A stretch of DNA of 64,000 nucleotides from Niabella yanshanensis. GTDB taxonomy: Bacteria; Bacteroidota; Bacteroidia; Chitinophagales; Chitinophagaceae. The number at the start of each line of letters is the position of its first letter. The first letter of the stretch is position 1. Below are positions 9,651 to 53,632 of this stretch, piece after piece. Where the stretch lies: assembly GCF_034424215.1 (NCBI RefSeq), contig NZ_CP139960.1, forward strand, positions 620,001-684,000, read 5' to 3'. The position numbers were made by a program, and so were the translations under genes. The notes under the pieces are model-generated. The model had not been told where the DNA came from, ran no database searches, and saw only the letters and a list, made by a program, of their open reading frames with translations.

Positions 9651-9670
9651 CCTTAAATTACACAATCATG

Positions 9671-12412: not shown

Positions 12413-12508
12413 GCTTATTAATAGGTTGTAAAGATATTAACAGAGACGGGAGTGTGTACTTTTATTTTCACCATTAAGTGACGTATATCCGCAAAAATAT
12501 TTTCGGGG

Positions 12509-26801: not shown

Positions 26802-26816
26802 TTATGTAGAACATAA
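26802..26816. promoter_or_regulatory. Operator 1 of the sialic-acid regulon
   Basis: TTATGT-AGA-ACATAA is a perfect 6-3-6 palindrome, 34 bases upstream of the esterase start. The identical 15-mer occurs at 29986, and variants occur at 34300 and 52853. The GTN3AC core is the known core of FadR-subfamily GntR operators, and a FadR-type gene lies at the end of the locus. Confidence 0.75.
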
Positions 26817-26850: not shown

Positions 26851-27807
26851 ATGAAAAGGAAGTTTTTTCCTGCCTTATTTTTGGGGGCATTGGCCATGGG
26901 CTGCATCTTTTGTCTTTCTCCCATGAACAGCGGGGCTCAACAGATTATCCAGCTGTATAATACCGTTCCTAATGCCATTGAATCAACAGAATTCATAGAA
27001 AACTGGGACACCACTTCTAATGGCAGGATACTGGTCAGGAATGTGACCCGCCCCACATTGACTGCTTATTTACCTGCAAAGGATAAGACCAATGGTACGG
27101 CAGTAATTATTTGCCCCGGCGGTGGTTACTCTTACCTGGTTATAAACCGGGAAGGCAGTGATGTTGCGGAAGTATTTGCCCGTAACGGGGTAGCAGCTTT
27201 TGTGTTAAAATACCGGCTGCCCAACGACCGGATAATGCGCGACAAAACCATCGGTCCGCTACAGGATGCGCAACAGGCCATGAAGCTGCTGAGAGAACGG
27301 GCCTCTGAATGGAATATCAACATTAACAGGATCGGTATTATCGGTTTTTCGGCTGGCGGGCACCTGGCTTCAACGGCTTCCACACATTTTACCACCGCCG
27401 TTACAGCCAACGAAAAAGGAACCAGTTTGCGACCCGACTTTTCTATACTGGTATACCCCGTTATCAGTTTTGGCGATAGCCTGAGCCATAAAGGTTCAAG
27501 AAGAGCGTTGCTTGGTAAAGATACTACCAGCTTACCGGCAACCAGGCTCTATTCCAACGAGCAACAGATCACAGCATCTACACCCCCAACCTTCTTATTG
27601 CATAGTTCAGACGATAAAATAGTGCCCGTTGGCAACAGCATTGCCTATTACCAGGCCTTAATCAGGGCGGGGGTAAAAGCCGAAATGCATATTTACAGCA
27701 CCGGGGGGCATGGATATGGATTACTTAATAAAACCAATAAAGATGATTGGTTTCAACGATGTATGAACTGGATGCAGGCTAACCAATGGCTGCAACCTGA
27801 AAAATAA
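26851..27807 (+). CDS. Alpha/beta-hydrolase esterase, possible sialic-acid O-acyl esterase
   Basis: A protein of 318 residues with a signal peptide (about 1-29, ending SGAQ). The alpha/beta-hydrolase core has the oxyanion segment 'IICPGGGY', the nucleophile Ser167 in GFSAGG, acid Asp254 or Asp255 in 'HSSDDKIVP' and His287 in 'GGHGYG'. It resembles acetyl-xylan/feruloyl esterases (BD-FAE-like). As first gene of unit A in a sialic-acid locus, a role in removing O-acetyl groups from sialic acids is a good guess but is inference. Operator 1 lies directly upstream. Confidence 0.75.
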   Translation: MKRKFFPALFLGALAMGCIFCLSPMNSGAQQIIQLYNTVPNAIESTEFIENWDTTSNGRILVRNVTRPTLTAYLPAKDKTNGTAVIICPGGGYSYLVINREGSDVAEVFARNGVAAFVLKYRLPNDRIMRDKTIGPLQDAQQAMKLLRERASEWNININRIGIIGFSAGGHLASTASTHFTTAVTANEKGTSLRPDFSILVYPVISFGDSLSHKGSRRALLGKDTTSLPATRLYSNEQQITASTPPTFLLHSSDDKIVPVGNSIAYYQALIRAGVKAEMHIYSTGGHGYGLLNKTNKDDWFQRCMNWMQANQWLQPEK

Positions 27808-27830: not shown

Positions 27831-28949
27831 ATGAATCGGTCCCTGTTTTTTCTTATAATAACTACTTCAATGATTATTGCATCCTGCGAAACAGCAGAAA
27901 AAATCCCTGTTTTCGAATGGTCACAGTTAAGTCCCGTGCCCGATAAAGTAGGATTTGCGGGCTCATTCGCGGGTATAAGCAATAATCATCTTATTGTAGC
28001 CGGGGGGGCACAGTTTCCTGAAGGTACCCGGCCATGGTCGGGCGGAGTTAAGACCTGGAACGATAAAGTGCTCGCGTTAGCCAGCGATGTCAAAGGCTGG
28101 AAGGAGATAGGCAGGCTTCCCAGGGCGATGGGTTATGGTATTTCTCTTAACTGGAAAGATGGGGTTCTGTTAATAGGCGGAGCCAATCAAACCAAACATT
28201 TTCAGGATGTGTATTTTATAAGATATCAAAATGAACAATTATCTATTGATACATTGGCTTCCTTACCACACCCGCTTGCCAACTCCTGTGGGGTGATGAT
28301 TGATAATATCGTATATGTAGCCGGCGGACTTTCATCTCCCGTTGCATCATCGGCTGAAAGCGCTTTTTGGGCGCTCGACCTTAACCAGCCCAGGGAACAG
28401 CAGCAATGGAAAAAGCTTCCTTCCTGGCCGGGCGAAGCAAGAATGCTGGGTGTAGCAGGACAGATCAATGGGGAATTCTACCTGTTAAGTGGAACCAGTT
28501 TATATATACCTGAGGGTGATTCAGTGGTGCACAGACGATATTTACGGGATAGTTTTGTTTTTAACACCGGTAAAGGATGGCGGAAAATTAAAGAACTGCC
28601 CCACCCGGTGGTAGCAGCGCCGACTCCGGCGTATACGAACGCGAATCAGCAGCTATTTATTTTTGGTGGCGACGATGGCAGCCGTGCAGAACAAAATACG
28701 ATCCTCAAAGATAAACATCCCGGTTTTCGTACAGAAACGCTGATGTATGATGCACAGAAAGATAATTGGACTATTACGGGAGCGGTGTTTACGGATCGGC
28801 AACCCAATCCGGAGAACAATCCCGGTGCCAGTACCTGGGCGCCGGTAACAACTCCTCTGGTTGTATGGAACAAGCAGATTGTTATTCCCCAGGGAGAAGC
28901 CCGGCCGGGGGTTCGCACCAACAGGGTTTTAGCAGCCAATCCGCAGTAA
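27831..28949 (+). CDS. nanM: Kelch-repeat lipoprotein, N-acetylneuraminate mutarotase-like (NanM)
   Basis: A protein of 372 residues with a lipoprotein signal (IIASC-ET). The mature part is a six-bladed Kelch propeller, with repeated 'GG' motifs ('LIVAGGAQFPEG', 'LLIGGANQ', 'VYVAGGLSSP', 'LFIFGGDDGS') and the final 'VIPQGEARPGVRTNRV', which resembles NanM (sialic-acid mutarotase/epimerase). NanM speeds conversion of alpha- to beta-Neu5Ac after sialidase release. It lies 23 bases after the esterase and 33 bases before a DapA-family aldolase. The enzyme assignment depends on the context as well as on the motifs. Confidence 0.8.
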   Translation: MNRSLFFLIITTSMIIASCETAEKIPVFEWSQLSPVPDKVGFAGSFAGISNNHLIVAGGAQFPEGTRPWSGGVKTWNDKVLALASDVKGWKEIGRLPRAMGYGISLNWKDGVLLIGGANQTKHFQDVYFIRYQNEQLSIDTLASLPHPLANSCGVMIDNIVYVAGGLSSPVASSAESAFWALDLNQPREQQQWKKLPSWPGEARMLGVAGQINGEFYLLSGTSLYIPEGDSVVHRRYLRDSFVFNTGKGWRKIKELPHPVVAAPTPAYTNANQQLFIFGGDDGSRAEQNTILKDKHPGFRTETLMYDAQKDNWTITGAVFTDRQPNPENNPGASTWAPVTTPLVVWNKQIVIPQGEARPGVRTNRVLAANPQ

Positions 28950-28982: not shown

Positions 28983-29921
28983 ATGGAACCATTAACAAAG
29001 GATACATGCAGGGGTAACTGGGGTACTCTTTTATTACCCATCAACCCCGATGATACTATCGACTTTTCGAGGCTTTCTCATGAGATAGATGTACTGATTG
29101 CCGCTCATGTTGACGGCATCTATTCTAACGGAACAGCCGGTGAATTTCACACTCAAACCGAAGCCGAGTTTGATCAGATTAGTCAGTTGCTAGCCGAAAA
29201 ATGTAATGTAGCCGGGATGCCTTTCCAGATAGGTGTTTCACATTCTGTTCCGGCTATTGTACTGGACCGAATCCGGCGAACGCAAACATTAAAGCCTTCT
29301 GCTTACCAGGTTATACTACCCGATTGGGTGGCGGTAACCAACCAGGAAGCCCGGGGATTTCTCAACAGGATATCAGAAGCAGCCCATCCGGTTCCATTGG
29401 TATTATATAATCCACCGCATGCCAAAAGAGTGTTGCCACCGGCCGGTTATCAGGAATTGGTAGAGACTACTCCAGGACTGATCAGTGTGAAGCTACTAGA
29501 TGGTGACGAGCAGTGGTACGAGCAAATGAAACCTCTGGCTGACCGGATTGCCGTATTTGTACCCGGGCATCATCTGGCTACGGGAGTTGAAAAAGGTGTG
29601 GCTGCGGGCGCCTATTCAAATGTCGCCTGTGTCCATCCTAAGGCCGCTCAGCAATGGTGGCAGATGATGCAAACGGATATAAATGAAGCTTTGCAGGTGC
29701 AAAATACAATCCAGTCGTTCTTTGATGCCTATATACTGCCTTATGCTAAAAAGAACTTCAGTAACCCTGCGTTGGATAAATTGTTGGCAGCTGTTGGAGC
29801 CTGGGCGCCTGTCGGTACACGGCTGAGATGGCCTTATCAATGGATCCCGGAAACAGATGTTGCGGATGTTCGTAAAGGGGCCCACCAGCATTTACCCGGT
29901 TGGTTTTTCGATGCCATTTAA
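28983..29921 (+). CDS. DapA/NAL-superfamily aldolase, second paralogue
   Basis: A protein of 312 residues, class-I aldolase of the dihydrodipicolinate synthase/N-acetylneuraminate lyase superfamily. The Schiff-base lysine is K170 ('ISVKLLDGD') and the catalytic tyrosine Y142 ('LYNPPHA'). The substrate-carboxylate motif is altered to 'SNGTAGEF' (residues 48-55). It is clearly distinct from the NanA-like enzyme at 31944. It could act on a modified sialic acid or a different 2-keto-3-deoxy acid produced by the same locus. It is the last gene of unit A; no hairpin follows. Confidence 0.8.
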   Translation: MEPLTKDTCRGNWGTLLLPINPDDTIDFSRLSHEIDVLIAAHVDGIYSNGTAGEFHTQTEAEFDQISQLLAEKCNVAGMPFQIGVSHSVPAIVLDRIRRTQTLKPSAYQVILPDWVAVTNQEARGFLNRISEAAHPVPLVLYNPPHAKRVLPPAGYQELVETTPGLISVKLLDGDEQWYEQMKPLADRIAVFVPGHHLATGVEKGVAAGAYSNVACVHPKAAQQWWQMMQTDINEALQVQNTIQSFFDAYILPYAKKNFSNPALDKLLAAVGAWAPVGTRLRWPYQWIPETDVADVRKGAHQHLPGWFFDAI

Positions 29922-29977
29922 ATTGCTCATTTCCTGATTTTTTTTCTTGAAAAATTGTGTAATTTGAAATTAATTAA

Positions 29978-29985
29978 TACATTTG
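29978..29985 (+). promoter_or_regulatory. Bacteroidota-type -7 box of unit B
   Basis: TACATTTG matches the consensus TAnnTTTG exactly. A TTG at 29955-29957, about 20 bases upstream, could serve as the -33 element. The box directly abuts operator 2, so a bound repressor would cover the start site. Confidence 0.6.
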
Positions 29986-30000
29986 TTATGTAGAACATAA
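29986..30000. promoter_or_regulatory. Operator 2 of the sialic-acid regulon
   Basis: The same 15-base palindrome TTATGTAGAACATAA as operator 1, without mismatch, 3.2 kb away. It begins at the base after the -7 box of unit B, spanning the expected transcription start. The long leader between here and ATG 30195 (about 195 bases) shows no obvious gene. Confidence 0.8.
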
Positions 30001-30194
30001 GAACTAAACGAAGCTTGTAGATCAATAACCCCACGGACGGCCAATAGATACGAAAGATATTAACAGTAGAAGGAACTGCTTCTATAAAAAGAAGTATTGA
30101 AAAAAGATCAAACAGTATATCACTGCACTGCTCAACATCAGGCAGGTTGATAATTATTGATGGGCAGCAATGCCTGAATATATATGATTTGTTT

Positions 30195-31862
30195 ATGAAC
30201 CTTACACGTATCATCGAATTATTCTTAGCAGCAATAATGATTATCATTGCCCCGAAATCCTTCGGACAGGATATCCGTTTGAACCATAGAAATTTTATGA
30301 TACCGGTTATTAAAGAGCGCGGTGTAATTATTGTATCGAGAAGCGAAATTGTAACTGATCATAATTCCCGTCCCCGTTATCTTAAACAATTGTCGTTAAA
30401 CTTAAACGGCACAACCGATCTGAAAGATATCGTCAATATCAAAATTTATTGCAACTCTGATAGTACTTACCTGACTGAGGAAGTCGCATTAAAGGCCCCG
30501 CTTTTTAATAGTAGCCCAATCATTGCCGGTAACTCTATACTACTGAATGGAAACCTGAGATTATCCTCCAAAAAGAACTATATATGGATCGGTCTTGACA
30601 TAAAGGAATCGGCGATAGTAGGCAATAAAATAAAAATTGGATTATCAGGGTTAGTACTTGACGATATAACCGTTGTAAAGGGTTTGTCCCAGCCCTTCAC
30701 CTATCGTGTGGCTAGCGCTGTTCGGCAGTCCATGCAGGACAATGTGCATACATCGAGGATCCCGGGCCTGGCTACTGCACTTAACGGAGATCTGCTTGCT
30801 GTATACGATGCCCGGTATGAATCCCGACGGGATCTGCAGGGCGATATTGATATTGCCTTAAACAGAAGTACCGACAAGGGTATTACCTGGTTACCCATAC
30901 AGAAGATCATTGATATGGGAAGGTTTAATGATCTGCCTGAGAAATTCAACGGCGTATCGGATCCGGCTATACTGGTGGATCAAAAAACAGGAAACATTTT
31001 TGTAGCAGGGCTGTGGATGCATGGCGTATTGGATGATAAAGGTAAATGGATTGAAGGGCTCACAGATACCAGCACCAACTGGAACCATCAATGGCGCAGC
31101 AAAGGTTCACAACCGGGCTTTGATATAAAGCAAACCTCGCAGTTCCTGATAGTAAAAAGTACCGATAACGGCAAAACCTGGTCGAAGCCGGTAAACCTTA
31201 CCCGGATGTGTAAAAAAGAAGAGTGGTGGCTCTGGGCGCCTGCTCCCGGAAGTGGCTTTACCATGAATGACGGAACATTGGTTTTTCCAACGCAGGGGAG
31301 GGACAAAACCAGCAAGGCTTTTTCCACTATAACTTATAGCAAGGACGGAGGCAAAACCTGGGTAACCGGTACACCTGCTTATGATCTGTCAACGACAGAA
31401 TGTATGGCTGCCCAGTTGTCGGATGGCTCTATTATGCTCAACATGCGAACAAATGCCAATAAGGATCTTGCCGGGACGGGCAATGGGCGCGCAGTAGCAG
31501 TAACAAAAGATATGGGGCGAACCTGGACGATGCATAAAACCTCGCGTAGTGCGCTTCCGGAGCCGGTATGTATGGCTAGTTTATATAAACATGTATACAA
31601 GGCTAAAGATGGCAGTAAAAAAAATGTACTGCTGTTTTTTAATCCTAATTCAACTACTAAAAGAAATCACTTAACATTAAAAGTGAGCCTGGACGACGGC
31701 AATACCTGGCCGGCTGAGAAATTTGTTTTACTGGATGAATTCAGTGGCAGTGGGTATTCCTGTATCACATCGGTTGATAATGATACAATAGGTATTATAT
31801 ACGAAGGCAGTCAGGCCCATCTGACTTTCGAAAAAATAAACATAAAAGAAATCATTCAATAA
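30195..31862 (+). CDS. nanH: Exo-alpha-sialidase with N-terminal domain
   Basis: A protein of 555 residues from ATG 30195; the longer frame from 30147 precedes the signal peptide with a hydrophilic stretch. Signal about 1-28. An N-terminal beta domain (about 35-175) is followed by a six-bladed BNR propeller. Asp-boxes: STDKGITW, STDNGKTW, SKDGGKTW, TKDMGRTW, SLDDGNTW. All catalytic elements of GH33 are seen: RIP arginine (SRIPG), Asp in 'GDIDIAL', Glu in 'TTECMAAQL', the other triad arginines (MLNMRT, TKRNHL) and Tyr in 'SGYSCI'. It cleaves terminal sialic acids in the periplasm or outside. First gene of unit B with nanA and the transporter. Confidence 0.9.
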   Translation: MNLTRIIELFLAAIMIIIAPKSFGQDIRLNHRNFMIPVIKERGVIIVSRSEIVTDHNSRPRYLKQLSLNLNGTTDLKDIVNIKIYCNSDSTYLTEEVALKAPLFNSSPIIAGNSILLNGNLRLSSKKNYIWIGLDIKESAIVGNKIKIGLSGLVLDDITVVKGLSQPFTYRVASAVRQSMQDNVHTSRIPGLATALNGDLLAVYDARYESRRDLQGDIDIALNRSTDKGITWLPIQKIIDMGRFNDLPEKFNGVSDPAILVDQKTGNIFVAGLWMHGVLDDKGKWIEGLTDTSTNWNHQWRSKGSQPGFDIKQTSQFLIVKSTDNGKTWSKPVNLTRMCKKEEWWLWAPAPGSGFTMNDGTLVFPTQGRDKTSKAFSTITYSKDGGKTWVTGTPAYDLSTTECMAAQLSDGSIMLNMRTNANKDLAGTGNGRAVAVTKDMGRTWTMHKTSRSALPEPVCMASLYKHVYKAKDGSKKNVLLFFNPNSTTKRNHLTLKVSLDDGNTWPAEKFVLLDEFSGSGYSCITSVDNDTIGIIYEGSQAHLTFEKINIKEIIQ

Positions 31863-31943
31863 GAGGTAAGGTGCATGGGCTTTCTGCAACTTTCAGAAAA
31901 CATAGATGCTGTTCTACCCACTCATAAAATACAAAAAATTAAG

Positions 31944-32894
31944 ATGAATATAAAAAAACTCGAAGGGCTGCTTGCGGCAACGTTTAGTACATTTGACGAA
32001 AACAAAGAATTGAAACTGGACCTTGTTCCGCAAGTTGTAGAGAAGCTGATCGCTGACGGTGTAAAAGGCATTTTTGTGGGCGGCACCAATGGAGAGGGTT
32101 TAAGTCTTTCAACCGAAGAGCGTATGGCTATTACGGAAGCCTATGTGCAGGCCGCGAAAAAAAGAATACTGATATTTACTCATGTGGGACATAGTTCTAT
32201 AAAAGAGGCACGTAAGCTGGCTGCCCATGCGCAGGAAGCAGGTGCAGACGCTATTTCTGCTGTGTCTGCCTTTTACTTTAAACCACAGTCTGCTGAAAAC
32301 CTGGTCAACTGTATGGCCCAGATCGCAGCCGCAGCACCCGATCTTCCTTTTTACTATTATCATATACCCTCAGTAACAGGATTAACAATAGGGGTGATCG
32401 ATTTCCTGAAACATGCAGAAACAAAAATTCCCAACCTGGTGGGTATCAAATACACCGCCAATACGCTACATGAATACCAGGATTGCCTGAATTATAAAAA
32501 TGGCAAATACGATATTTTATTTGGATACGACGAGTTACTGTTACCCGCCCTGGCCATTGGTGCAAAAGCTGCAATAGGGAGCACCTACAGTTTTGCCGCT
32601 CCTATGTACCAGAGAGTAATAGAGCTTTTTAAACAAAAAAAGATAGAGGAAGCAGCAGCGGCTCAATTTGAATGTATAAAGATGATCAGGGCGCTGGGAA
32701 AATATGCTCCTATTCCTACTCAAAAACAAATTTTAAAATTAACCGGCCTGGATCTGGGCGGCTGCAGGCTGCCACTGGTGGCTTTGGATGAAGGTCAGTG
32801 CAACGACCTGAAGGCCTACCTGGAAGAAATATCATTTTTTGAAACCCTGGATCAGGCCCGGAAATTAAAGGTTGAGTCGGCCCTTGTTGCTTAG
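31944..32894 (+). CDS. nanA: N-acetylneuraminate lyase
   Basis: A protein of 316 residues from ATG 31944; the frame is open to 31875, but the shorter start gives the standard N-terminus ('GLLAATFSTFDENKEL'). It has the NAL-type carboxylate motif 'GGTNGEG' (46-52), tyrosine Y139 in 'YYYHIPS' and Schiff-base lysine K169 in 'VGIKYTA'. It splits N-acetylneuraminate to ManNAc and pyruvate in the cytoplasm. Between sialidase and transporter genes, this is the pathway's key catabolic enzyme. No ManNAc epimerase or kinase is found in the window. Confidence 0.9.
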   Translation: MNIKKLEGLLAATFSTFDENKELKLDLVPQVVEKLIADGVKGIFVGGTNGEGLSLSTEERMAITEAYVQAAKKRILIFTHVGHSSIKEARKLAAHAQEAGADAISAVSAFYFKPQSAENLVNCMAQIAAAAPDLPFYYYHIPSVTGLTIGVIDFLKHAETKIPNLVGIKYTANTLHEYQDCLNYKNGKYDILFGYDELLLPALAIGAKAAIGSTYSFAAPMYQRVIELFKQKKIEEAAAAQFECIKMIRALGKYAPIPTQKQILKLTGLDLGGCRLPLVALDEGQCNDLKAYLEEISFFETLDQARKLKVESALVA

Positions 32895-32935
32895 CAGGTC
32901 ATCGTCATCAACCCGCCCTAAAAACGATATTGCAT

Positions 32936-34171
32936 ATGAATATTGAGAATCCTAAATACAAATGGACGGTAGTAGGCCTGCTCTGGTTCGTTGGGCTCCT
33001 CAACTACCTCGACCGCCAGATGCTTTCGACCATGCGGCCCGCCATGCAGATAGATATTGCCGAACTGCAAAGCGCAGAAACCTTTGGCATATTAATGTCG
33101 ATCTTTTTATGGATCTATGGTTTTATGAGTCCTGTATCAGGACTTATAGCAGACCGGGTTAACCGGAAATGGCTGATCGTTTTCAGCCTCTTTATTTGGT
33201 CTGCCGTTACCTGTCTTATGGGTTTCGCTGATTCGTTTACCGAGCTAAAGTGGCTGCGTGGCATTATGGGCTTAAGCGAAGCGGTTTATATACCCGCAGC
33301 CCTGTCCCTGATAGCCGATTATCATACTTCCAAAACCAGGTCGCTGGCAATTGGTATTCACATGACCGGCCTATATTTTGGCCAGGCATTGGGCGGATTC
33401 GGCGCCACTTTCGCCAAAGAATATTCCTGGCACCAGACTTTTTATCTTTTCGGCCTGGTAGGTATTATTTATGCTATAGTATTGGCCATTCTCTTAAGAG
33501 AAAAGCGGGTAAAAGCCGCTGTAAGCACGATAGCAACAGAACCACGCAACACTAATATGTTAAAGGGTGTGGGATGGCTTTTGAGCAACCTGTCTTTTTG
33601 GGTGATACTATTTTATTTTGCAATGCCAAGCCTGCCCGGATGGGCTACCAAGAACTGGCTCCCCACCTTGTTTTCCGAAAGCCTGGGTATAGATATGGCT
33701 GTTGCAGGTCCTATTGCCACTATTACAATTGCGGCTTCCTCGTTCCTGGGTGTAATTATGGGAGGTATCATTTCAGATAAATGGGTTCAAAGAAATATAA
33801 AAGCCAGGGTATACACGAGCGCTATTGGCGTCTTTTTAACCATCCCGGCTATACTGATACTGGGCTTTGGGGATACCACTTTTGTATTGATACTTGCCGC
33901 CATCCTTTTTGGTGTTGGTTTTGGGATGTTCGATGCCAACAATATGCCCATTCTATGCCAGTTTGTGCCGGCAAGATACAGGGCAACGGCCTACGGACTG
34001 ATGAATATGACAGGCGTATTTTTCGGAGCGTTTATAACCAGCGTGCTGGGCAAGTCGTCAGACGAAGGTCACCTCGGAAGAGACTTTGCATTAATGTCTG
34101 GGGTAGTACTTTTAATATTAATCATACAACTAGCCGTTTTAAAGCCGGCAGTTCAGGAAATGGAAGATTAA
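32936..34171 (+). CDS. MFS transporter, probable sialic-acid importer
   Basis: A protein of 411 residues with twelve predicted membrane helices, starting at ATG 32936. It belongs to the anion:cation symporter type of the major facilitator superfamily: 'LNYLDRQMLSTMRP' in helix 1 and 'GLIADRVNRKWLIV' as the loop 2-3 signature. Bacteroidota import sialic acid across the inner membrane with such MFS carriers. Position after nanA in unit B supports that substrate. The homology alone would also allow hexuronates. Confidence 0.85.
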   Translation: MNIENPKYKWTVVGLLWFVGLLNYLDRQMLSTMRPAMQIDIAELQSAETFGILMSIFLWIYGFMSPVSGLIADRVNRKWLIVFSLFIWSAVTCLMGFADSFTELKWLRGIMGLSEAVYIPAALSLIADYHTSKTRSLAIGIHMTGLYFGQALGGFGATFAKEYSWHQTFYLFGLVGIIYAIVLAILLREKRVKAAVSTIATEPRNTNMLKGVGWLLSNLSFWVILFYFAMPSLPGWATKNWLPTLFSESLGIDMAVAGPIATITIAASSFLGVIMGGIISDKWVQRNIKARVYTSAIGVFLTIPAILILGFGDTTFVLILAAILFGVGFGMFDANNMPILCQFVPARYRATAYGLMNMTGVFFGAFITSVLGKSSDEGHLGRDFALMSGVVLLILIIQLAVLKPAVQEMED

Positions 34172-36345: not shown

Positions 36346-36367
36346 AAACTAAATGCTTTTCAAAATC

Positions 36368-39300
36368 ATGAACGAAAACTTTTTCTATAAAGGTATATTG
36401 GTTTTGGCTCTTCTGGTAGCAGGTCTGGGATCTCAGGCGCAGGATGCTGCCGTTCTGAAGGGAGTAGTTTACGATAAGAAGGGAGGTAAACCGTTGACAG
36501 ATGTATCTGTAATGATCGTAAACGCCAATAACCTTGCACTAAATGGTAATAAAACGAATGAGGAAGGAAAATTCGAGGTGGTAAATTCGAAAGGAGGCAG
36601 TAAGATCGTATTCTCGAATATGGGTTACCAAACCCAGGAAAAGGAGATAGGCGACAAAACCTTTTTTACTATCTATCTATCGGAAGACAGCAGCTCTATG
36701 GAGATAGTAAAAGTGGTTTCTACGGTGCAGAAGAAAGCCGACCTTGGTTTTTTAAGTATCGATAAAAGAGAGTTGTCCAGTGCTGTAGCTTCGGTTGACC
36801 TGGAAAATACCGAGAAGATGCCGGTTGTAAATGTGGAGCAGCTCTTACAAGGTATGGCGCCAGGTTTGCAGGTAGTATCAGCCAGCGGCGATCCAGGTGC
36901 AGCAGCCAGTATACGGATCAGGGGTATCTCCAGTATCTCGGGAATGAACGATCCCTTATGGATCGTTGATGGCGCTGAGATCATTGGTAACAATTACCAG
37001 GTAGCCAGTATCACCGATTTTGGATTCAGTCCCATTGGCGACCTGGATCCGTCAGATATTGCTTCAATCGACATTTTAAAAGATGCATCGGCAACTGCCT
37101 TATACGGATCAAGAGGGGCCAATGGTGTAATTGTTATTCAAACCAAAAGAGGTAAAAAGGGCAAGGCACAGTTACAGGTAAATACTAAATTCACCTTAAC
37201 AGAAGTGCCTCGTACGATACCGATGTTGTCGGGCGATGAGCAACGTATTTATTATATTGAAAAAACTACAGGCGGGCTGGATAATGGAACTTCCTTTCCC
37301 GAGTTGAGAGGTGATCTGACCCGGTCTGATGCCTGGATATTTAATAATAATACGGACTGGACGGATGCTATAACCAGGAAGGGTATATTTCAGCAATATA
37401 ATACCGCGTTAAGCGGAGGCGGCGACCGGATCAATTACTACTGGGGTTTAGGTTATGCCAACCAGTATGGAACCACCAAGGGAACGGGGTACGACCGGTT
37501 CAATACAAGATTCAACTTAAATTATAAGGTATCCGATAGATTCAAAGTTACAGCCGACCTGAACTATACGAATTCGTTAACGGATAAAAGAGGCCAGGAG
37601 CATCCTATCACCAATGGCAACCAGGAGCTCAACCCATTATTGTTGGCACGGCAAATTCCCGCCTATTTCCCGGTATACTCACGCAATGGATTAAATTATT
37701 TCCTCGACCGGAATATCACCATCTCTTCACACTCCAGGTACAACCCGCTCGCCCTCATAGACTATTCTACTTATTTTACAAGAGCCAATCGTTTTATGGC
37801 TTCTACCTCGGTAGATTTTAAAATACGGAGCAATATAGATTTCCGTGCACAGGTATCAACGGATTTCCGGGAATCGGCCGATGAATACTTCCTGCCAGGT
37901 TACGCAACAGATGCTTTACCTGGAGAGATATTATATAATGCTGGCTTGCAAACAGAAGGATACCAGCTAATGATCAACAGCAATAATCGCTTAACCTGGT
38001 CGGCTATAAAAAGGAAAGACCATCGTCTAACTTTTACCGGTGTACTCACTTACAATATAGACCGTAATAATTCTACTGAGATACAATATTATAATAGTGC
38101 CTCGCCTCAACTGAAATCGGCAGACGCCGCCGCAATTATATCAGCAGCTACGGGCAACTATGGAACTTCGAAATACCTGGGGATGTTTGTGCAGGGACAT
38201 TACGCCATGAAAGATCGTTACTTCATCACAGTTACCGGAAAAACAGAAGGAGATTCAAGATATGGGGCCGATAATCCTTACTCTATTTTCCCGGCTATTG
38301 GCGGCGCCTGGGAAATAAGCAGAGAATCTTTTTTAGCGGACGCCGAATGGATCACTTTTATTAAACCGCGGTTTGCCTATGGTGTCACGGGAAATTTACC
38401 GCGATTGAATAACCTGTATGATATCGCCTATGGCACCGGAACCGGTTATCTCGGTCAAACCTATACCTATCCTTCTAAATTCGCCAATGACAATATAAGG
38501 GAAGAACGCACTACGGAATATAATATGGGTATAGACTGGAGCTTTTTTAAAGACCGGCTTACCGGGCAGCTGGATTTTTACTCCAGAACAACCAACAACC
38601 TGCTATTACAGGAGCGACTGTCGTCTACCTTAGGCTATTCATCTCAATATATCAATTTTGGTACCGTACGCAACTCGGGTTGGGAGCTAGGCGTCACCGG
38701 GATTATCCTGAAAGGCAGCGATACCAAACTGCGTTGGAAATCTTTTTTCAATATTGCCACTAACCGTAACAGGATTATAAAATTACCTGAGCTTTTTGAT
38801 GCCAACGCATTTACCGTAAGCCAGTCTGGTTTTACCTCCAAGTTACAGGAAGGCGATGTAGTGGGCGCCTTCTATGGGTACCAGGCGTTGGGCGTATACT
38901 CCCGCGATGATGATGCTATTTTAAAAGATGCCGAAGGCAATACTATTTATGAGGCCGATGGTATTACGCCTAAGTATATGCGTTATGGTTCTTCTACCGG
39001 TCGCCAGTTTAAAGGAGGAGATATGATTTATTCCGACATCAACGGGGACGGGGTGATTAATGAACTGGACCGCGTGCAGATAGGTGATGCCAGCCCGCAG
39101 TTCTTTGGTGGCTGGAACAATACTTTCAACTACAGGAACTGGATCGTAACGCTAAACCTGCAATACCAAACCGGTAATGATATCATTAATGCTACCCGTC
39201 AATACATGGAACGAATGACTGTTTCTCACAACCAGTCGCAATCTGTATTAGCACGGTGGCGGCGCCAGGGAGATGTTACAGATATGCCAAGGGCCCAGCC

Positions 39301-39595
39301 GGATAATTCCTGGAATTCCGCTGCATCAACGCGCTGGGTAGAAGACGGATCTTACCTGCGTTTAAAGACAGTTTCTTTAACCTATACAGCCGGTAAAGAG
39401 CTGGTGAGAAAAATCGGGTTAGGTGTACGTCAACTCAGCTTTTTTGTTACGGGGTACAACCTGTATACCTGGACGCGCTACCTGGGATTGGACCCTGAGG
39501 TACCTATAACCGGTAGTGTGTATTTATTTGGTATTGATAATGCGACCACTGCTCCTCCAAGACAATATACACTGGGATTAAATATCGGGTTTTAG
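36368..39595 (+). CDS. SusC/RagA-type TonB-dependent outer-membrane transporter 1
   Basis: A protein of about 1075 residues; ATG 36368 begins a normal signal peptide (ending SQAQ), and an in-frame ATG at 36353 is possible. Domains: carboxypeptidase-regulatory-like domain (about 28-105), plug domain (about 125-235, with 'ASIRIRGISSISG', 'PLWIVDGAEI' and 'ALYGSRGANGVIVI') and a 22-strand barrel. It imports oligosaccharides with its SusD partner and TonB energy. The partner SusD follows 46 bases later. The locus suggests sialylated oligosaccharides as cargo. Confidence 0.93.
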   Translation: MNENFFYKGILVLALLVAGLGSQAQDAAVLKGVVYDKKGGKPLTDVSVMIVNANNLALNGNKTNEEGKFEVVNSKGGSKIVFSNMGYQTQEKEIGDKTFFTIYLSEDSSSMEIVKVVSTVQKKADLGFLSIDKRELSSAVASVDLENTEKMPVVNVEQLLQGMAPGLQVVSASGDPGAAASIRIRGISSISGMNDPLWIVDGAEIIGNNYQVASITDFGFSPIGDLDPSDIASIDILKDASATALYGSRGANGVIVIQTKRGKKGKAQLQVNTKFTLTEVPRTIPMLSGDEQRIYYIEKTTGGLDNGTSFPELRGDLTRSDAWIFNNNTDWTDAITRKGIFQQYNTALSGGGDRINYYWGLGYANQYGTTKGTGYDRFNTRFNLNYKVSDRFKVTADLNYTNSLTDKRGQEHPITNGNQELNPLLLARQIPAYFPVYSRNGLNYFLDRNITISSHSRYNPLALIDYSTYFTRANRFMASTSVDFKIRSNIDFRAQVSTDFRESADEYFLPGYATDALPGEILYNAGLQTEGYQLMINSNNRLTWSAIKRKDHRLTFTGVLTYNIDRNNSTEIQYYNSASPQLKSADAAAIISAATGNYGTSKYLGMFVQGHYAMKDRYFITVTGKTEGDSRYGADNPYSIFPAIGGAWEISRESFLADAEWITFIKPRFAYGVTGNLPRLNNLYDIAYGTGTGYLGQTYTYPSKFANDNIREERTTEYNMGIDWSFFKDRLTGQLDFYSRTTNNLLLQERLSSTLGYSSQYINFGTVRNSGWELGVTGIILKGSDTKLRWKSFFNIATNRNRIIKLPELFDANAFTVSQSGFTSKLQEGDVVGAFYGYQALGVYSRDDDAILKDAEGNTIYEADGITPKYMRYGSSTGRQFKGGDMIYSDINGDGVINELDRVQIGDASPQFFGGWNNTFNYRNWIVTLNLQYQTGNDIINATRQYMERMTVSHNQSQSVLARWRRQGDVTDMPRAQPDNSWNSAASTRWVEDGSYLRLKTVSLTYTAGKELVRKIGLGVRQLSFFVTGYNLYTWTRYLGLDPEVPITGSVYLFGIDNATTAPPRQYTLGLNIGF

Positions 39596-39641
39596 ATAAA
39601 CAAATATGATTTAACCGCTGGCAAAGCAAAAAAATAAACAG

Positions 39642-41186
39642 ATGACAGCAAGAATAAAATACTGCCTACTGGTTTTAACAATTACCCTGTCTTTCTCCTG
39701 TAATAAACTACTGGAGGTGGATGTACCCGACAACCTCGTTCATAACGAATTCTGGCAAAACCGGGACCAGGTATTTGCTTCCTTAATGGGGTTATACACT
39801 TCTGTACAAGGTAACCTGAACTCGTACCAGGTATGGGGCGACTCGCGCTCCAGTCTTTATGAGCCTGGCCCGGGCGATGCTTTCACTACGAACCACGCTC
39901 AGTTCCTGTCGCATGATATTTACCCGGAGAACGGTTTGCTCTCCTGGAGTAATGTTTATAAATCGATCGGCTGGATTAACTCATTCATTAAAAATGCGCC
40001 ACAGGGCTTAACCAATGACCCCACTTTTAAAGAAGAGGAGCTAAAAACAATGCTGGGGGAAGCCTATGGGCTAAGAGCACTGAATTATTTTTACCTGGTA
40101 AGAGCATTTAAAGAAGTACCCATCATTACAGAACCCTATGAGTCGGACAACCAGCAGGTAAATACCGTTGCTTCGGCCGAGTCTGCTGTATTGGAATTGA
40201 TAGAAGCCGACCTGGCAGTTGCTTTGGCGCAGGCACCCGAAACATTTGAAGAAGTGACTTACCGTTACGGCAGGATCACTAAAAATGCAGTAAGAGCCCT
40301 ATGGGCCGATGTAAAACTCTGGAAGAATGATTACCAGGGCGTATTAACCCTATGCGCGCCTTTGGATCAACAATATCAATCCAGGCTGTTAGCGCCATTG
40401 GAATGGTATAGCATTTTCAACCCCGGCAACGCTCAGGAGGCCATATTTGAATTGCAACATGTACAAACCGGACCTGCTTCACCGGTATATAATTGGTTCG
40501 CTAATTTTTCCACTACCGCAACAGGAGGTGCTACCTGGCTGGGCAATCCCGTTAACCTGATGCTGGCCAACTCGGAGATCTTATATCCAACGGCTCTGCC
40601 TGGCTATATCAGTTCAGATACCATCAGATTTAAAGACCTTGCCAGTTATCGTTTAGGACAGGCTATTGCGAACGGGTATGGCAATGGGGTAGAAGTGTAT
40701 AAATTCCTGGGGCAACAGGCTTACCAGTTATCTTACCGGCCCAATAATGATCGCAGAACGGTAAATTATATTCTGTATCGCTACCGTGAGATCCTGCTGA
40801 TGAAAGCAGAGGCGCTAGCCATGTTAAACCGGTACGCAGAGGCAGAAGAGATGATCAACCTGATCAGGGAACACTGCAATATTCCGAAACTGAACCCTGG
40901 CGAGGGCGGAGAAGGAGAAGAATTCTTTAGCAGGTTATTAATGGAAAGAGAAGCAGAACTTGGATTCGAAGGTAAAGAATGGTTTGCCGCTGTAAGGGTA
41001 TCCAGGAGAGCGGGTTTGCAGAATGTACTGCTTAACAAATCAGCAACCAATAATTCTATGGGATACTCTTACCAGGTTACCCGGGCGAGACTGCTGAATC
41101 CGGAGAGCTGGTTTCTGCCTTATCATCGCACGGAGATTGAGAACAACCCGAAGCTTCAGCAAAAAGATTACTATAAGAATAAATAA
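39642..41186 (+). CDS. SusD/RagB-type outer-membrane lipoprotein 1
   Basis: A protein of 514 residues with a lipoprotein signal (LSFSC-NKLL) and the all-helical TPR-like SusD fold: 'LEVDVPDNLV' start, 'LGEAYGLRALNYFYLVRAF', 'YRYREILLMKAEALAMLNR' and the C-terminal 'ERELGFEGKEWF-like' element (ERE-AELGFEGKEW). It is the lid that captures ligand for the adjacent SusC. Its order after SusC is the usual one. Ligand inferred to be a sialoglycan from the locus. Confidence 0.92.
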   Translation: MTARIKYCLLVLTITLSFSCNKLLEVDVPDNLVHNEFWQNRDQVFASLMGLYTSVQGNLNSYQVWGDSRSSLYEPGPGDAFTTNHAQFLSHDIYPENGLLSWSNVYKSIGWINSFIKNAPQGLTNDPTFKEEELKTMLGEAYGLRALNYFYLVRAFKEVPIITEPYESDNQQVNTVASAESAVLELIEADLAVALAQAPETFEEVTYRYGRITKNAVRALWADVKLWKNDYQGVLTLCAPLDQQYQSRLLAPLEWYSIFNPGNAQEAIFELQHVQTGPASPVYNWFANFSTTATGGATWLGNPVNLMLANSEILYPTALPGYISSDTIRFKDLASYRLGQAIANGYGNGVEVYKFLGQQAYQLSYRPNNDRRTVNYILYRYREILLMKAEALAMLNRYAEAEEMINLIREHCNIPKLNPGEGGEGEEFFSRLLMEREAELGFEGKEWFAAVRVSRRAGLQNVLLNKSATNNSMGYSYQVTRARLLNPESWFLPYHRTEIENNPKLQQKDYYKNK

Positions 41187-47092: not shown

Positions 47093-49003
47093 ATGAAAAA
47101 GCTTATCATATTTATCATTCCAATCTGTTCACTTTTTTTAATCATGTTCACGAGTGGATGTTATAAGGAGCAACATTTTGATTTCCCCGGGCCTTTCGTG
47201 GATTCAAGTCGCGCGAATATAACCGATTCGCTTCCTTTTCCGTTTGATAAAAACCGCCAGGCAGGTGTTTGGCTGATGAAGGATGGCATGGCCGATCATG
47301 ACAAGATTCTCTTTAAAGGCTTTACAGATTATAAGGCCATGAACGATACGGTATCCTGGGTAAAGGAGAGTTCGGGCATGCGGCTGATTCCGCACCGGAA
47401 CTATTACCCGCTCAGTAATGCAGATCATCTGGGTGGTGATCCCAATAGCTATACCTACAACTGGGCTATGTCTAAATACTTTGTGCCCGTAGGAGCCGGA
47501 AAGAGCTTTTATATGTATGCAAAGGTTACGGTGGGCACCTTTAGTGGTACGGCAGCGGGCCTTGACTTAGGTCGTAGCTGGGAAACAGGGGGTAGCTTTA
47601 TATTTGGATTCGATGGTAACAGCAACGTTGCACCTACCTTTTTCGTCGATCTGTATGGTAAACTGGGGGCATCCGTAAATCCAGATCTGGGTTGGCCCAC
47701 AGCCAACGAAGTAATTGTACCAGGCGTACCTGCAGAAATGGAAGTAGTGATACATGACAACCTGTTTTATATGAAGATCAATGGTACATTATGTTTCCTT
47801 TTCAAGTTATCGCGTGAGAACCTATACTACTTTACCCCAACAATCAGACCCTGGAGAAATTTTATTACGGTACATGACTTTTACCTGGAAAGCAATGATA
47901 TGTATACCGTTAACTATGCCATGCATGAAAATGAAAAGGAGTATGCACGTATACAGGCTCCGGCGCTGGCAAAGGCAGGCAATGAGAACCTGCTGCTTTT
48001 TGCAGAGGGCAGAACCAAACCACAAACAGCTTTTGAACGTGTGGCGCAGAACACCCTGCCAGTTGGCAACACAGATATTATTATGCGGAGATCTGTTAAT
48101 AACGGCGAAACATGGGAGGATAATATCACAGTGATCGCGGGCGAAGGCTCAAACGACACTTATGGTTTTCCGCAGGTGGTTTCAACTGCTGATGGTAAAA
48201 TTATTTTACATTACAACAAGCTAACAACCACTGTAGCAGCCAATGGCAGTTTTAGCTATCCTGCAGAACAAACGATGTTCCAGGTAATATCGGCCGACAA
48301 TGGTGCTACCTGGTCACCGCCGGTTGATATTACAGCTCCCCTGAAAGATGTCAGCCGCGGATTTGTAAAAAGCAGTGCGGGTCATGGTATCCAATTACAA
48401 TCGGCAGCCTACAATAACCGGTTGGTAATGCCCCTGATCTATGGCGGTACTTCCATTAAGATGGCCATATCAGATGATAATGGTACTACCTGGCGAAAGA
48501 GCCAGGATATTGGTGGTACCAATATCGTATCGGGTTCGGTAATAGAGCTGGCAGACAATCGCCTGATGTTAACCCTGTCGCACAGCAATACTGCACCGCA
48601 GAGCAAATTAGTTTGTTACAGCAGTGATGGGGGTGATACCTGGACAACGCCTGTAGCGATAGGGGCAGGTGTTGCAACATCCACCTTTGGTCATATGTAT
48701 GGAGGAGTTACGTTAAAAGATAATGCCGGTAAACTGTACCTGATCAATCCGGTAGGCAGGGAAAAAGATCCGCAGGTGTACAACGGCCCCAACTATGGAG
48801 TTACACCAACCGTATTTGAAAGCAGCAATCATGGTGTATCATTTGTACAGACAGGAGTTTTGTTCAATAAAATAGCCTACAGAGGTTATGCGTCGCCCAT
48901 TGGCAATATGGACGCGGTTTTTGCCAATGACGGAAAGGTAGTGGTTGCTGGAGAGGGTGGGGTAGAAAGCCCTCAGGAAGGTATTATTATTTACAGGAAA
49001 TAA
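47093..49003 (+). CDS. Sialidase-like BNR lipoprotein with N-terminal lectin-like domain
   Basis: A protein of 636 residues with a lipoprotein signal (FTSGC-YKE), so probably at the cell surface. Residues 30-270 look like a concanavalin-type beta-sandwich. The propeller follows, with Asp-box-like motifs SVNNGETW, SADNGATW, SDDNGTTW and SSDGGDTW. Catalytic elements are unusual: RIP is replaced by 'ARIQAPAL', the Glu motif NES is 'GSVIEL', and the 'MxMR' arginine position reads 'LMLTLSHS'. 'NTDIIMRRS' keeps the Asp. It may bind or cleave a modified sialic acid, or be a non-catalytic binder. Confidence 0.75.
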   Translation: MKKLIIFIIPICSLFLIMFTSGCYKEQHFDFPGPFVDSSRANITDSLPFPFDKNRQAGVWLMKDGMADHDKILFKGFTDYKAMNDTVSWVKESSGMRLIPHRNYYPLSNADHLGGDPNSYTYNWAMSKYFVPVGAGKSFYMYAKVTVGTFSGTAAGLDLGRSWETGGSFIFGFDGNSNVAPTFFVDLYGKLGASVNPDLGWPTANEVIVPGVPAEMEVVIHDNLFYMKINGTLCFLFKLSRENLYYFTPTIRPWRNFITVHDFYLESNDMYTVNYAMHENEKEYARIQAPALAKAGNENLLLFAEGRTKPQTAFERVAQNTLPVGNTDIIMRRSVNNGETWEDNITVIAGEGSNDTYGFPQVVSTADGKIILHYNKLTTTVAANGSFSYPAEQTMFQVISADNGATWSPPVDITAPLKDVSRGFVKSSAGHGIQLQSAAYNNRLVMPLIYGGTSIKMAISDDNGTTWRKSQDIGGTNIVSGSVIELADNRLMLTLSHSNTAPQSKLVCYSSDGGDTWTTPVAIGAGVATSTFGHMYGGVTLKDNAGKLYLINPVGREKDPQVYNGPNYGVTPTVFESSNHGVSFVQTGVLFNKIAYRGYASPIGNMDAVFANDGKVVVAGEGGVESPQEGIIIYRK

Positions 49004-49013: not shown

Positions 49014-50459
49014 ATGCAGCTATTTAAATTATATCCCTATTTATTCACTATTCTTTTTCTGACCAGTGGCCTTAACTTGTATAGTCAACCCGTTAACAGG
49101 AAAATGAATGTGCTCTTTATCGTAGCCGATGACATGCGGCCGGATTTAGGATGTTATGGCAATAAAAAAGTGATCACCCCTAATATAGACAGGCTGGCGG
49201 ACGGCAGCATCGTGTTCAACAATGCGTATTGCCAGCAGGCCGTTTGCAATCCTTCAAGAGCATCTGTATTAACGGGGCTTCGCCCGGATCAGACGGGTGT
49301 AACGGATCTGGTTACCCATTTCCGTACTAAGGTTCCCGATGCAGTTACTTTGCCACAGGCTTTTAAAAATGCGGGTTACACCACGATTGGGGTAGGAAAG
49401 ATCTTTCATAATACTAAAAAGACAGTGGATACGGTTTCCTGGTCGTTACCCAATGCCGGAAATGTTTCTGTTAGCAATAAAGAATACTTCCTCGAAAGAA
49501 ATAAAAAAGGAGGTAAAGCCGATGCTTTTGAATTTACCGAAGGGGAAGATGAGAAATACCCGGATGGGCAAATCGCAGGGGCGACCATTCAATTATTAAA
49601 ACGATTTAAAGAATCAGGAGAACCTTTTTTTCTTGCCACAGGATTTAAAAAACCGCATCTTCCTTTTTGTGCTCCTCAGAAATACCTGGACTTATACCGG
49701 GATACCAGGTTTTCAGGTATCAGTAATAAAGAAAGACCTGCCGGGGCACCCGGTATAGCTTTTCATCAATGGCAGGAGCTCAGAGGGTATACGGATATCC
49801 CCGATCAGGGCCCGATAAGTGTACAAAAGGAACAAGACCTTATTAGGGCTCACTATGCGTGTATTAGCTATGTAGATGTACAGATTGGTAAGATCATGCA
49901 GGAATTGGATCGTTTAGGACTGAGAGAAAATACCATCGTTATTTTATGGGGTGATCACGGCTATCATTTGGGAGAGCAGGACCTCTGGTGTAAGTCCACG
50001 AACTTTGAGCTGGACACACGTATCCCATTAATAATATCGGCTCCGGAAATTACTCAAAAGACAGGTAAGACGAACGCAATAGTAGAAGCGGTAGATATTT
50101 ACCCCACGCTGATCGATTTATGTGGTATTGTGTCCGCTTCTAAATTAAGTGGCAAAAGCCTGGCGCCATTACTGCTGAATCCGGGTATGAAATGGGATCA
50201 TGTAGCCTACAGCCAGTTTTGCAGGCCCTATAAAGCGATTACCGCACAGCATCCTACTCATATGGGATACACCGTACGGGATAAAGATTTCAGGTATACG
50301 CTCTGGTACAACTTAAGTACCAATACTGTTGAAGCACGTGAACTGTATGATATGAGGCAATCGAACATTGAAACCGTAAATATTGCAGGACAAAAAAAAT
50401 ATCAGCAGGCAGAAAATAGGCTGACAAAAATGCTGGAAGCATATAAACAAAATCAATAG
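49014..50459 (+). CDS. Secreted sulfatase (iduronate-2-sulfatase-like)
   Basis: A protein of 481 residues with a signal peptide (about 1-25). It is a type-I sulfatase: formylglycine motif C78-N-P-S-R82 ('AVCNPSRASVLTG'), metal ligands in 'IVADDMRPD' and 'LWGDHGYHLGEQ', and the C-terminal 'RELYDMRQS' end. It needs a formylglycine-generating enzyme, not seen here. Closest in pattern to the iduronate-2-sulfatase-like group. In this operon it probably removes sulfate from a sialoglycan (for example sulfated mucin-type chains); substrate is inferred. Confidence 0.88.
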   Translation: MQLFKLYPYLFTILFLTSGLNLYSQPVNRKMNVLFIVADDMRPDLGCYGNKKVITPNIDRLADGSIVFNNAYCQQAVCNPSRASVLTGLRPDQTGVTDLVTHFRTKVPDAVTLPQAFKNAGYTTIGVGKIFHNTKKTVDTVSWSLPNAGNVSVSNKEYFLERNKKGGKADAFEFTEGEDEKYPDGQIAGATIQLLKRFKESGEPFFLATGFKKPHLPFCAPQKYLDLYRDTRFSGISNKERPAGAPGIAFHQWQELRGYTDIPDQGPISVQKEQDLIRAHYACISYVDVQIGKIMQELDRLGLRENTIVILWGDHGYHLGEQDLWCKSTNFELDTRIPLIISAPEITQKTGKTNAIVEAVDIYPTLIDLCGIVSASKLSGKSLAPLLLNPGMKWDHVAYSQFCRPYKAITAQHPTHMGYTVRDKDFRYTLWYNLSTNTVEARELYDMRQSNIETVNIAGQKKYQQAENRLTKMLEAYKQNQ

Positions 50460-50493: not shown

Positions 50494-51678
50494 ATGATGA
50501 GATCAGGTATTATAACTATGATTGCTGTAGTATTAATGATGCCTTTGACAGGCTATACACAATCGAAGGGAGGCAACTCCAATATTTACAAATCGGTACT
50601 TTGGGAACAGGGCAAAGGCAAATATAAAAATTACCGGATCCCTGCAGTAATAGCTACTAAAAAAGGAACCGTGCTCGCATTTTGTGAAGCCAGGGAGGCC
50701 GGAGACACCGGCGATATCGACCTTTTGGTAAAACGCTCAAAGGATAATGGTAAAACATGGAGCGAAGAATCAGTAGTATGGAATGATGAGCAAAATACCT
50801 GCGGTAATCCATGTCCGGTTGTTGATATGGAAACAGGTCGTATCTGGCTGGTGACTTCCTGGAATGATGGTAAGGATCATGAAACAGCTATTGTTAATAA
50901 AACATCCAGATCCCCCCGTTTACCTTTTATATGCTATTCTGATGATGATGGCTTAAGCTGGTCAAAACCTGTTAGCATGGGAGCGGCAACCAGAGATACT
51001 TCCTGGGGCTGGTATGCAACCGGGCCTGGTATTGGTATACAGGTTAAAAACGGTGCCTACAAAGGAAGGTTAGTTATTCCTGCTAATCATAGCTACAACG
51101 ATCCTGACGGTAAGATCAGGAAAGGACCTTATGGATATGGTGCTCATGTTTTGTATTCAGATGATCATGGTGCCAGCTGGAAAAAAAGCGAGTCTATAAA
51201 ACCGGGATGTAACGAAAGCCAGGTAACCGAACTTGCAGATGGTACGCTGATGATGAATATGCGTTCTTATAACGAAAAGTTTTCAAGAGCGGTTAGCACC
51301 AGTAAAGACGGTGGCGCCACCTGGAGTGCTATAGGTCATGATTACCAGCTTACCGAATCCATCTGCCAGGCAAGTATCCTTAACTTTGGACAGGTGCAGG
51401 GAAAACCGGCCTATCTCTTTCTTAATCCCGCAGTGTCTGTCGGCAGGACGCATATGACTTTAAAAACCAGTTTCGATAATTGCCGGAGCTGGTCCAACAG
51501 TAAATTAGTTTACGCAGGCCCTTGCGGTTATTCCAGCTTGACCAGGCTGCCCAATGGCAGGGTAGGCATTTTTATTGAAGCCGGTAAGAAGAAATCTTAC
51601 GAGAAAATGATCTTTGTTTCCTTCCCCGCTGAGACCCTGTTTACCGCAGGCGCTATGCTGCAGGAAAATGATATTTAA
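50494..51678 (+). CDS. Exo-alpha-sialidase (compact GH33)
   Basis: A protein of 394 residues with a signal peptide (ending GYTQ) and only the propeller. All GH33 elements are visible: R48 in 'NYRIPAV', Asp74 in 'TGDIDLL', Glu in 'NESQVTELADG', arginines in 'LMMNMRS' and 'VGRTHMTL', and Tyr in 'CGYSSLTRL'. Asp-boxes include SKDNGKTW, SDDHGASW and SKDGGATW. It should release terminal sialic acid. Fully canonical, in contrast to its neighbours at 47093 and 51708, which suggests division of substrate range. Confidence 0.9.
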   Translation: MMRSGIITMIAVVLMMPLTGYTQSKGGNSNIYKSVLWEQGKGKYKNYRIPAVIATKKGTVLAFCEAREAGDTGDIDLLVKRSKDNGKTWSEESVVWNDEQNTCGNPCPVVDMETGRIWLVTSWNDGKDHETAIVNKTSRSPRLPFICYSDDDGLSWSKPVSMGAATRDTSWGWYATGPGIGIQVKNGAYKGRLVIPANHSYNDPDGKIRKGPYGYGAHVLYSDDHGASWKKSESIKPGCNESQVTELADGTLMMNMRSYNEKFSRAVSTSKDGGATWSAIGHDYQLTESICQASILNFGQVQGKPAYLFLNPAVSVGRTHMTLKTSFDNCRSWSNSKLVYAGPCGYSSLTRLPNGRVGIFIEAGKKKSYEKMIFVSFPAETLFTAGAMLQENDI

Positions 51679-51707
51679 ACTAATCTATCTGCAATTTACT
51701 ATAATTT

Positions 51708-52915: not shown

Positions 52916-53632
52916 ATGGCTAATGGAAACCTCAGTAACGACATTCAAAGAATAGAGTCGGCAACAATGGCCGATATGGTGGAACTACGATTAAGAGAAT
53001 TTTTAAAGAAAAAAGCTTTCAAGCCCGGGGATGCGCTTCCCAAAGAGCTGGAACTGGCTGAGGCACTGGATGTAAGCCGCAATGTAGTTAGAGAAGCGCT
53101 AAGCCGACTGCGGATGTTAGGGATGATCGAATCGAAGAAAAAAAGAGGAACCATTTTGGCCGAGCCCGATATTATGAACGGGTTTGAAAGAGTTATGGAC
53201 CCTTTGTTACTGGATCAGAAAACCTTGCAGGACTTGTTTGAATTAAGACTGGTATTAGAGATGGGTTTGGCCGATCTTTTATTTGCACGGATCACCAGCA
53301 AAGGCATCGAAGAATTGGAAAAAATAGTAGAAAAAGAAGTAAATAAAATTCAGCAACCTTTCCGGTTGAAATTTGAAATTGACTTTCATAGCAAGCTATA
53401 CCAGATGACCGGAAATGAAACTTTTTTCCGTTTTCAAAATATACTGTTACCTGTATTTGAATATGTGGTTAAGGAAGAACAAAAATTAACCGGTAAAGCC
53501 AAGGTTGGCAAAGTAACGCATCGTGATCTTTTGGAGTTGATCAAAAAAGGTAAACCGGAAGATTTCAGAAAGGGGATGAAAGAACACCTGGCTCCGCATT
53601 ATGAAAGGGTCAATAAAAGAATAATGTTATAA
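52916..53632 (+). CDS. FadR-subfamily GntR regulator (FCD domain)
   Basis: A protein of 238 residues. N-terminal winged HTH (about 15-80: 'LREFLKKKAFKPGDALPKEL', 'ALDVSRNVVREALSRLRMLG') and an FCD effector domain (about 100-235, with the 'LFELRLVLEMGLA' helix and histidines in 'FHSKLYQM' and 'THRDLLELI'). FCD domains bind organic acids or sugar acids with a metal ion. It follows the sialic-acid genes on the same strand, and the palindromes upstream of all four units have a FadR-type core, so it is the likely regulator. Effector probably a sialic-acid catabolite. Confidence 0.88.
   Translation: MANGNLSNDIQRIESATMADMVELRLREFLKKKAFKPGDALPKELELAEALDVSRNVVREALSRLRMLGMIESKKKRGTILAEPDIMNGFERVMDPLLLDQKTLQDLFELRLVLEMGLADLLFARITSKGIEELEKIVEKEVNKIQQPFRLKFEIDFHSKLYQMTGNETFFRFQNILLPVFEYVVKEEQKLTGKAKVGKVTHRDLLELIKKGKPEDFRKGMKEHLAPHYERVNKRIML

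Follow-up and report, generated by a model that had tools for sequence, protein, structure and literature searches.

A second DapA-superfamily enzyme accompanying NAL in a sialic-acid-type utilisation cluster of Niabella yanshanensis and in distant bacteria

To our knowledge, sialic-acid catabolism has been described with a single aldolase as its entry step. The closest described enzymes are NAL (NanA of Escherichia coli), the lysine-pathway enzyme DapA, the 2-keto-3-deoxygluconate (KDG)-type aldolases YagE and YjhH, and the NahE- and KdgD-type enzymes. The dehydratase KdgD and the hydratase-aldolase NahE belong to the PF00701 (DapA) superfamily. In this study, a window of 64,000 nucleotides (positions 620001-684000 of the complete 5.54 Mb genome of the soil bacterium Niabella yanshanensis) was analysed, and its sialic-acid-type utilisation cluster was found to contain two PF00701 genes with 2 kb between them. 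The first encodes a NAL-type aldolase (31944..32894, forward strand), and the second encodes an enzyme of 312 amino acids, here called ALD2 (28983..29921, forward strand). A previous sequence-only reading had proposed that two DapA-family aldolases share this locus, and both genes indeed matched PF00701, NAL with 196 bits and ALD2 with 54.6 bits against a cut-off of 22.1, which makes ALD2 a weak family member. ALD2 reached no NCBIfam cut-off.

Phylogeny, active site and fold of ALD2

The phylogenetic tree, built from 84 proteins by a quick search with SH-aLRT support only, placed 33 ALD2 sequences in one clade (SH-aLRT 96) and 29 NALs in another (99), and DapA formed a third clade. The gene at 31944 fell within the NAL clade, and its nearest solved structures were bacterial and human NALs, so that its earlier designation as an NAL-type enzyme with the GGTNGEG motif stood. 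Its open reading frame spans 31875-32894, and the alignment favoured the start at 31944. The separation of ALD2 from NAL and DapA is thus well supported at the level of sequence, and its placement among the deep groups is unsure as several branches of the tree set were long. The genome carries seven PF00701 genes, including a lysine-type DapA at genome position 1862560 that lies in the DapA clade. Apart from the family name, nothing favoured ALD2 as a lysine-pathway DapA, and this candidate was rejected as scarcely credible, since ALD2 stands outside the clade of the genome's own DapA, scored only 47.9 bits with the DapA model TIGR00674 (cut-off 206), and has lost the residues DapA R138 and Y107.

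Residues were counted in an alignment of all tree rows, with DapA numbering for T44, T45, Y107, Y133, R138 and K161. The equivalents of T44 (first Thr), Y133 (catalytic Tyr) and K161 (Schiff-base Lys) were kept in 33 of 33 ALD2 sequences, a likeness that ALD2 shares with DapA. In contrast, the position of T45 was Ala in 31/33, the relay residue Y107 was Trp and position 106 was Asp in every sequence, and R138 was Ala in all 33. In the window, ALD2 has the motifs SNGTAGEF, LPDW and YNPPHAK and the catalytic K170, and the altered motif noted earlier was confirmed. ALD2 has in common with NAL the PF00701 TIM barrel, the Schiff-base Lys and Tyr, and the gene clusters in which both occur, whereas the two share only about 20-27% identity. 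With respect to NAL, T48 is changed to Ala, Y110 to Trp and S208 to Asn, and the sugar-binding residues D191/E192 are deleted in 33/33 sequences; ALD2 has GTAGE in place of the T48 carboxylate motif and lacks the sugar-binding GxDE. A different set of pocket residues was strongly conserved among the ALD2 sequences, namely DW, PPHAK, GH, SN and R-x-R-x-PY. Judged by these residues, the pocket that reads the sugar in NAL is rebuilt in ALD2.

The AlphaFold model of ALD2 (pLDDT 93.1) was a (beta/alpha)8 barrel of the dihydrodipicolinate synthase family with Z-scores of about 32 to family members. Foldseek and VIA-align ranked NALs, DapA, YagE and NahE in a narrow band as its neighbours, so that the fold fixes the superfamily of ALD2 and not its substrate. 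YagE and NahE tied as the best structural matches; the YagE/YjhH and NahE/KdgD types have about 20% identity to ALD2, and no defining motif of theirs was shared or tested. These observations bear on the main alternative, which we consider real although on balance unlikely, in which ALD2 would use its Schiff base for dehydration, hydration or isomerisation, acting on an ulosonic acid before NAL (for example, an unsaturated or ring-closed one) or on a sugar acid derived from the NAL product. The loss of the relay Tyr and of the carboxylate Thr with retention of Lys and Tyr, the tie of the hydratase-aldolase NahE with YagE, and the normal aldolase that usually accompanies ALD2 would all agree with such an activity. 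However, the score with the KdgD (5-dehydro-4-deoxyglucarate dehydratase) model TIGR03249 was far below the cut-off (36.8 against 373.95 bits), and members of the superfamily cannot be told apart by their structural Z-scores.

Distribution and gene neighbourhoods of ALD2

Close ALD2 homologues were rare, being found in 5 of 395 Bacteroidota genomes, in 14/246 genomes of the family of the window and in 11/249 genomes of the order to which a Neorhizobium genome belongs. Among 241 genomes from the phylum of an Opitutae genome, there were one close and two distant homologues. In one region from that phylum (locus L113, 7497-18791), a distant ALD2-like protein with 24% identity again shared the region with genes for a sulfatase and a further PF00701 protein. 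Close homologues were also present on 146 plasmids, all from Rhizobium, Sinorhizobium, Neorhizobium or Phyllobacterium, where the annotation, if present, was mostly "dihydrodipicolinate synthase family protein". Gene calls in the GC-rich Rhizobiales loci were based on homology, as long wrong-frame open reading frames otherwise masked genes.

A second PF00701 gene was located near ALD2 in 28 of the 36 loci read, and two of the remaining eight loci ended at a contig edge. Among the 16 ALD2 loci of Chitinophagaceae, 12 had an NAL gene within about 10 kb. Chance therefore does not account for two PF00701 genes lying together, and the locus with two aldolases is a recurrent architecture in Bacteroidota and alphaproteobacteria. 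ALD2 constitutes an as yet uncharacterised subfamily within a known superfamily and repeatedly accompanies NAL. The tight linkage, with the two genes adjacent in several genomes, might also be expected of a redundant or inactive NAL paralogue that takes the same substrate or contributes a catalytically silent subunit to a hetero-oligomer. This explanation appears unlikely, as the catalytic Lys and Tyr are invariant across phyla, the Asp-Glu pair that binds sugar in NAL is absent from every ALD2, the clade is separate and deep, and some ALD2 loci have no NAL.

The following four kinds of neighbourhood were distinguished. In Bacteroidota, ALD2 and NAL were found with nanR, SusC/SusD, one or more sialidases, an MFS transporter, and NanM or a fusion of NanM with a sodium symporter, and ALD2 overlapped or abutted a sialidase gene in loci L015, L016, L039 and L046. 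The fusion, in which the mutarotase is joined to a transporter of the sodium:solute symporter (SSF) type, was seen in L033 (12676-15285), L016 (11937-14567), L170 and L171. In alphaproteobacteria of the TRAP type, the genes were a sulfatase, ALD2, GntR, NAL and a TRAP transporter. In Rhizobium and Neorhizobium, GntR and an ABC transporter enclosing another PF00701 gene accompanied ALD2, with a sulfatase in one case. The fourth kind had no other PF00701 gene and carried GH36, aldo-keto reductase or HpcH aldolase genes instead. Moreover, a gene for a PhyH-type 2-oxoglutarate dioxygenase lay in or beside the ALD2-NAL cluster in Pedobacter and one genus of Chitinophagaceae (L008, 9169-9990; L009, 7338-8126; L037, 4054-4836).

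On pSymB of Sinorhizobium meliloti, which belongs to the TRAP type, ALD2 is part of a compact run of nanR, siaP, the small and large TRAP permease genes, ALD2 and nanA (nanR-siaPQM-ALD2-nanA). This run lies at 11748-13593 of locus L187, which corresponds to 304747-306592 of pSymB in strain 1021, and at 6421-11822 of locus L188; the same genes were present in strain 1021 with 98-100% identity. Queries with E. coli NanE, E. coli NanK and AGE gave no match within the 24 kb that make up L187 (S. meliloti 1021). A literature search, in which the locus tags queried were guesses from coordinates, returned no paper on the ALD2 genes of S. meliloti or Rhizobium.

In alphaproteobacteria, the sulfatase gene adjoined or overlapped ALD2 (L110, 8811-11139; L111, 9974-12365; L011, 9003-11473), and its product had no obvious signal peptide. 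The link was strong in this class (L011, L110, L111 and L114) and was seen in only two Bacteroidota loci (the window and L016); a sulfated ALD2 substrate is therefore only a lead.

The NAL partner and the likely substrate of the locus

Chitinophagaceae possess two NAL systems. In the first (L177-L185), NAL has the motif GSTGEG and the N-acetylmannosamine (ManNAc) epimerase AGE is in the cluster in 9/9 loci. In the second, to which the window belongs together with L033-L046 and L166-L174, no cluster contained AGE, and the motif was mostly GTNGEG or GSNGEG; the exceptions were one genus with GSTGEG and ALD2 (L040, L042 and L043) and L016, from another family, with GTTGEG. Thus, the motif residue, Thr or Asn, tracks the presence or absence of AGE: none of 22 loci of the Asn type had AGE, and all nine AGE loci had Thr (Fisher p 4e-5, only indicative as the genomes are related). 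This residue might serve as a genomic marker of the use of N-acetylneuraminic acid (Neu5Ac) or of ketodeoxynonulosonic acid (Kdn). Such a simple rule, in which an epimerase with GSTGE denotes Neu5Ac users and GTNGE with no epimerase denotes probable Kdn users, would apply to soil and plant-associated bacteria, for which sources of nonulosonic acids are hardly known. Searches of the whole window genome found neither AGE nor NanE, and neither was found in four of five alphaproteobacterial genomes with ALD2 and NAL that were checked.

Cleavage of Kdn yields mannose, which needs no ManNAc epimerase. Because the clusters lack this epimerase and the carboxylate-binding motif has changed from Thr to Asn, the window NAL system is somewhat better read as serving Kdn or another nonulosonate than Neu5Ac, and the nonulosonate consumed by the locus is probably one that gives no ManNAc, with Kdn as the best candidate. 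As related in a review (PMC10017367), a NanA of Sphingobacterium cleaves Kdn and not Neu5Ac, residue 50 (given as Asp50) is decisive, and sialidases that release Kdn are known from the same genus. This Kdn-specific aldolase (Nakagawa et al., via PMC10017367) is the likely counterpart of the NAL at 31944 and not of ALD2: both are from Bacteroidota, and the Thr-to-Asn change is near the decisive position. The window-type motif has Asn where the review gives Asp50, so this match, compared by description, is a lead. The gene at 31944 combines the altered carboxylate-motif residue with a cluster devoid of ManNAc epimerase, and by analogy with the enzyme in PMC10017367 the altered residue may mark a group of Kdn-type NALs. 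The Kdn assignment is an inference, as E. coli NanA cleaves both Kdn and Neu5Ac (PMC13220900).

The absence of AGE and NanE from the window genome and from most of the alphaproteobacterial genomes checked might alternatively suggest that ALD2 replaces the missing ManNAc(-6P) 2-epimerase. This is very improbable. Nine window-type NAL clusters without ALD2 were also without AGE, counted at cluster level, so ALD2 does not track the loss of the epimerase; in addition, the chemistry is far from that of the superfamily, and some ALD2 loci have no NAL at all.

Proposed role of ALD2 and its setting in the window

We propose, with a probability of about 0.5, that ALD2 is a class I (Schiff-base) 2-keto-3-deoxy-acid lyase whose substrate is a second ulosonic acid, entering by the same uptake system as the substrate of NAL. 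This reading is suggested by the retained Lys, Tyr and Thr for imine chemistry, the remodelled pocket, the separate clade, the recurrent pairing with an aldolase and a shared operator. Nonulosonic acids would be released by surface sialidases, equilibrated between anomers by NanM and imported by the transporter; NAL would split the main acid, in this locus probably Kdn, into mannose and pyruvate. Cytoplasmic ALD2 would handle a variant that is poorly taken by NAL because its substituents, its C4 configuration or the length of its chain differ. In this reaction, K170 would be the imine lysine and Y142/T51 a proton relay. Aldol cleavage, pyruvate as product and the identity of the substrate are all putative. 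A second keto-acid substrate, as suggested previously, is the natural reading of a separate lineage with a remodelled site that recurs beside NAL; a modified sialic acid or a sialidase product, also put forward there, would be no more than a candidate for it.

Several observations weigh against ALD2 as such a lyase. The pocket is drastically altered (Ala for T45, Trp for the relay Tyr107, and NAL D191/E192 deleted), so that the reaction could differ and be that of a dehydratase, hydratase or isomerase. A minority of loci (L012, L017, L041, L044 and L045) had no nearby NAL or other PF00701 gene, and GH36, aldo-keto reductase or HpcH genes were found there. Furthermore, the nine window-type clusters without ALD2 in the stretch read are from the same family, which indicates that ALD2 is not essential. 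The wider proposal that ALD2 is the first representative of a novel class of lyases acting on ulosonic acids, which would give nonulosonic acids a second entry reaction besides NAL in Bacteroidota and on rhizobial plasmids, and that the cluster is a locus for utilisation of Kdn and not of Neu5Ac, is tentative. Nevertheless, the pairing of ALD2 with NAL across distant bacteria suggests an undescribed step in the bacterial use of sialic-acid-like sugars: the presence of another PF00701 enzyme beside NAL in different phyla points to a reaction missing from the textbook pathway, which could be tested in the genetically tractable S. meliloti, a nitrogen-fixing model symbiont.

In the window, ALD2 is preceded on the same strand by the genes of an alpha/beta hydrolase esterase of the BD-FAE family (26851..27807; PF20434, 80.9 bits) and of a NanM-type sialate mutarotase with a kelch propeller (27831..28949; PF24996, 125.6 bits), in agreement with the neighbours named previously. 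A homologue of the esterase, divergently oriented, adjoins the ALD2 loci of Pedobacter. Before this operon lies the operator-like sequence TTATGTAGAACATAA, a perfect 15-bp palindrome (26802..26816), and a second copy with identical letters (29986..30000) precedes the sialidase-NAL operon. The two sites compare with 0.02 expected in the window, and palindromes of this form occur near nanR in many relatives. The operator once described as belonging to the ALD2 operon alone does precede it but is shared, and because the same sequence stands before each operon, the ALD2 and NAL operons are probably co-regulated.

The NAL operon begins with SIAL1, a BNR/GH33-type sialidase (30147..31862, forward strand; PF13859, 104.6 bits) whose nearest solved structure was the Bacteroides sialidase 4bbw (E 1.5e-107), and NAL is followed by an MFS transporter that is NanT-like by position (32930..34171, forward strand; PF07690, 165 bits). 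Further downstream, all on the forward strand, are an outer-membrane SusC/SusD pair identified by profile search (36353..41186), the BNR protein SIAL2 (47093..49003), an S1-type sulfatase (49014..50459; PF00884, 173.8 bits), two sialidase-like BNR proteins, SIAL3 and SIAL4 (50494..52814), and a NanR-like GntR/FCD regulator (52916..53632). The top NCBIfam score of the SusD protein was with the NanU model, although below its cut-off. In Niabella hibiscisoli, the nearest named relative, most genes of the corresponding locus (L014), ALD2 included, contained many frameshifts, which looks like an assembly error.

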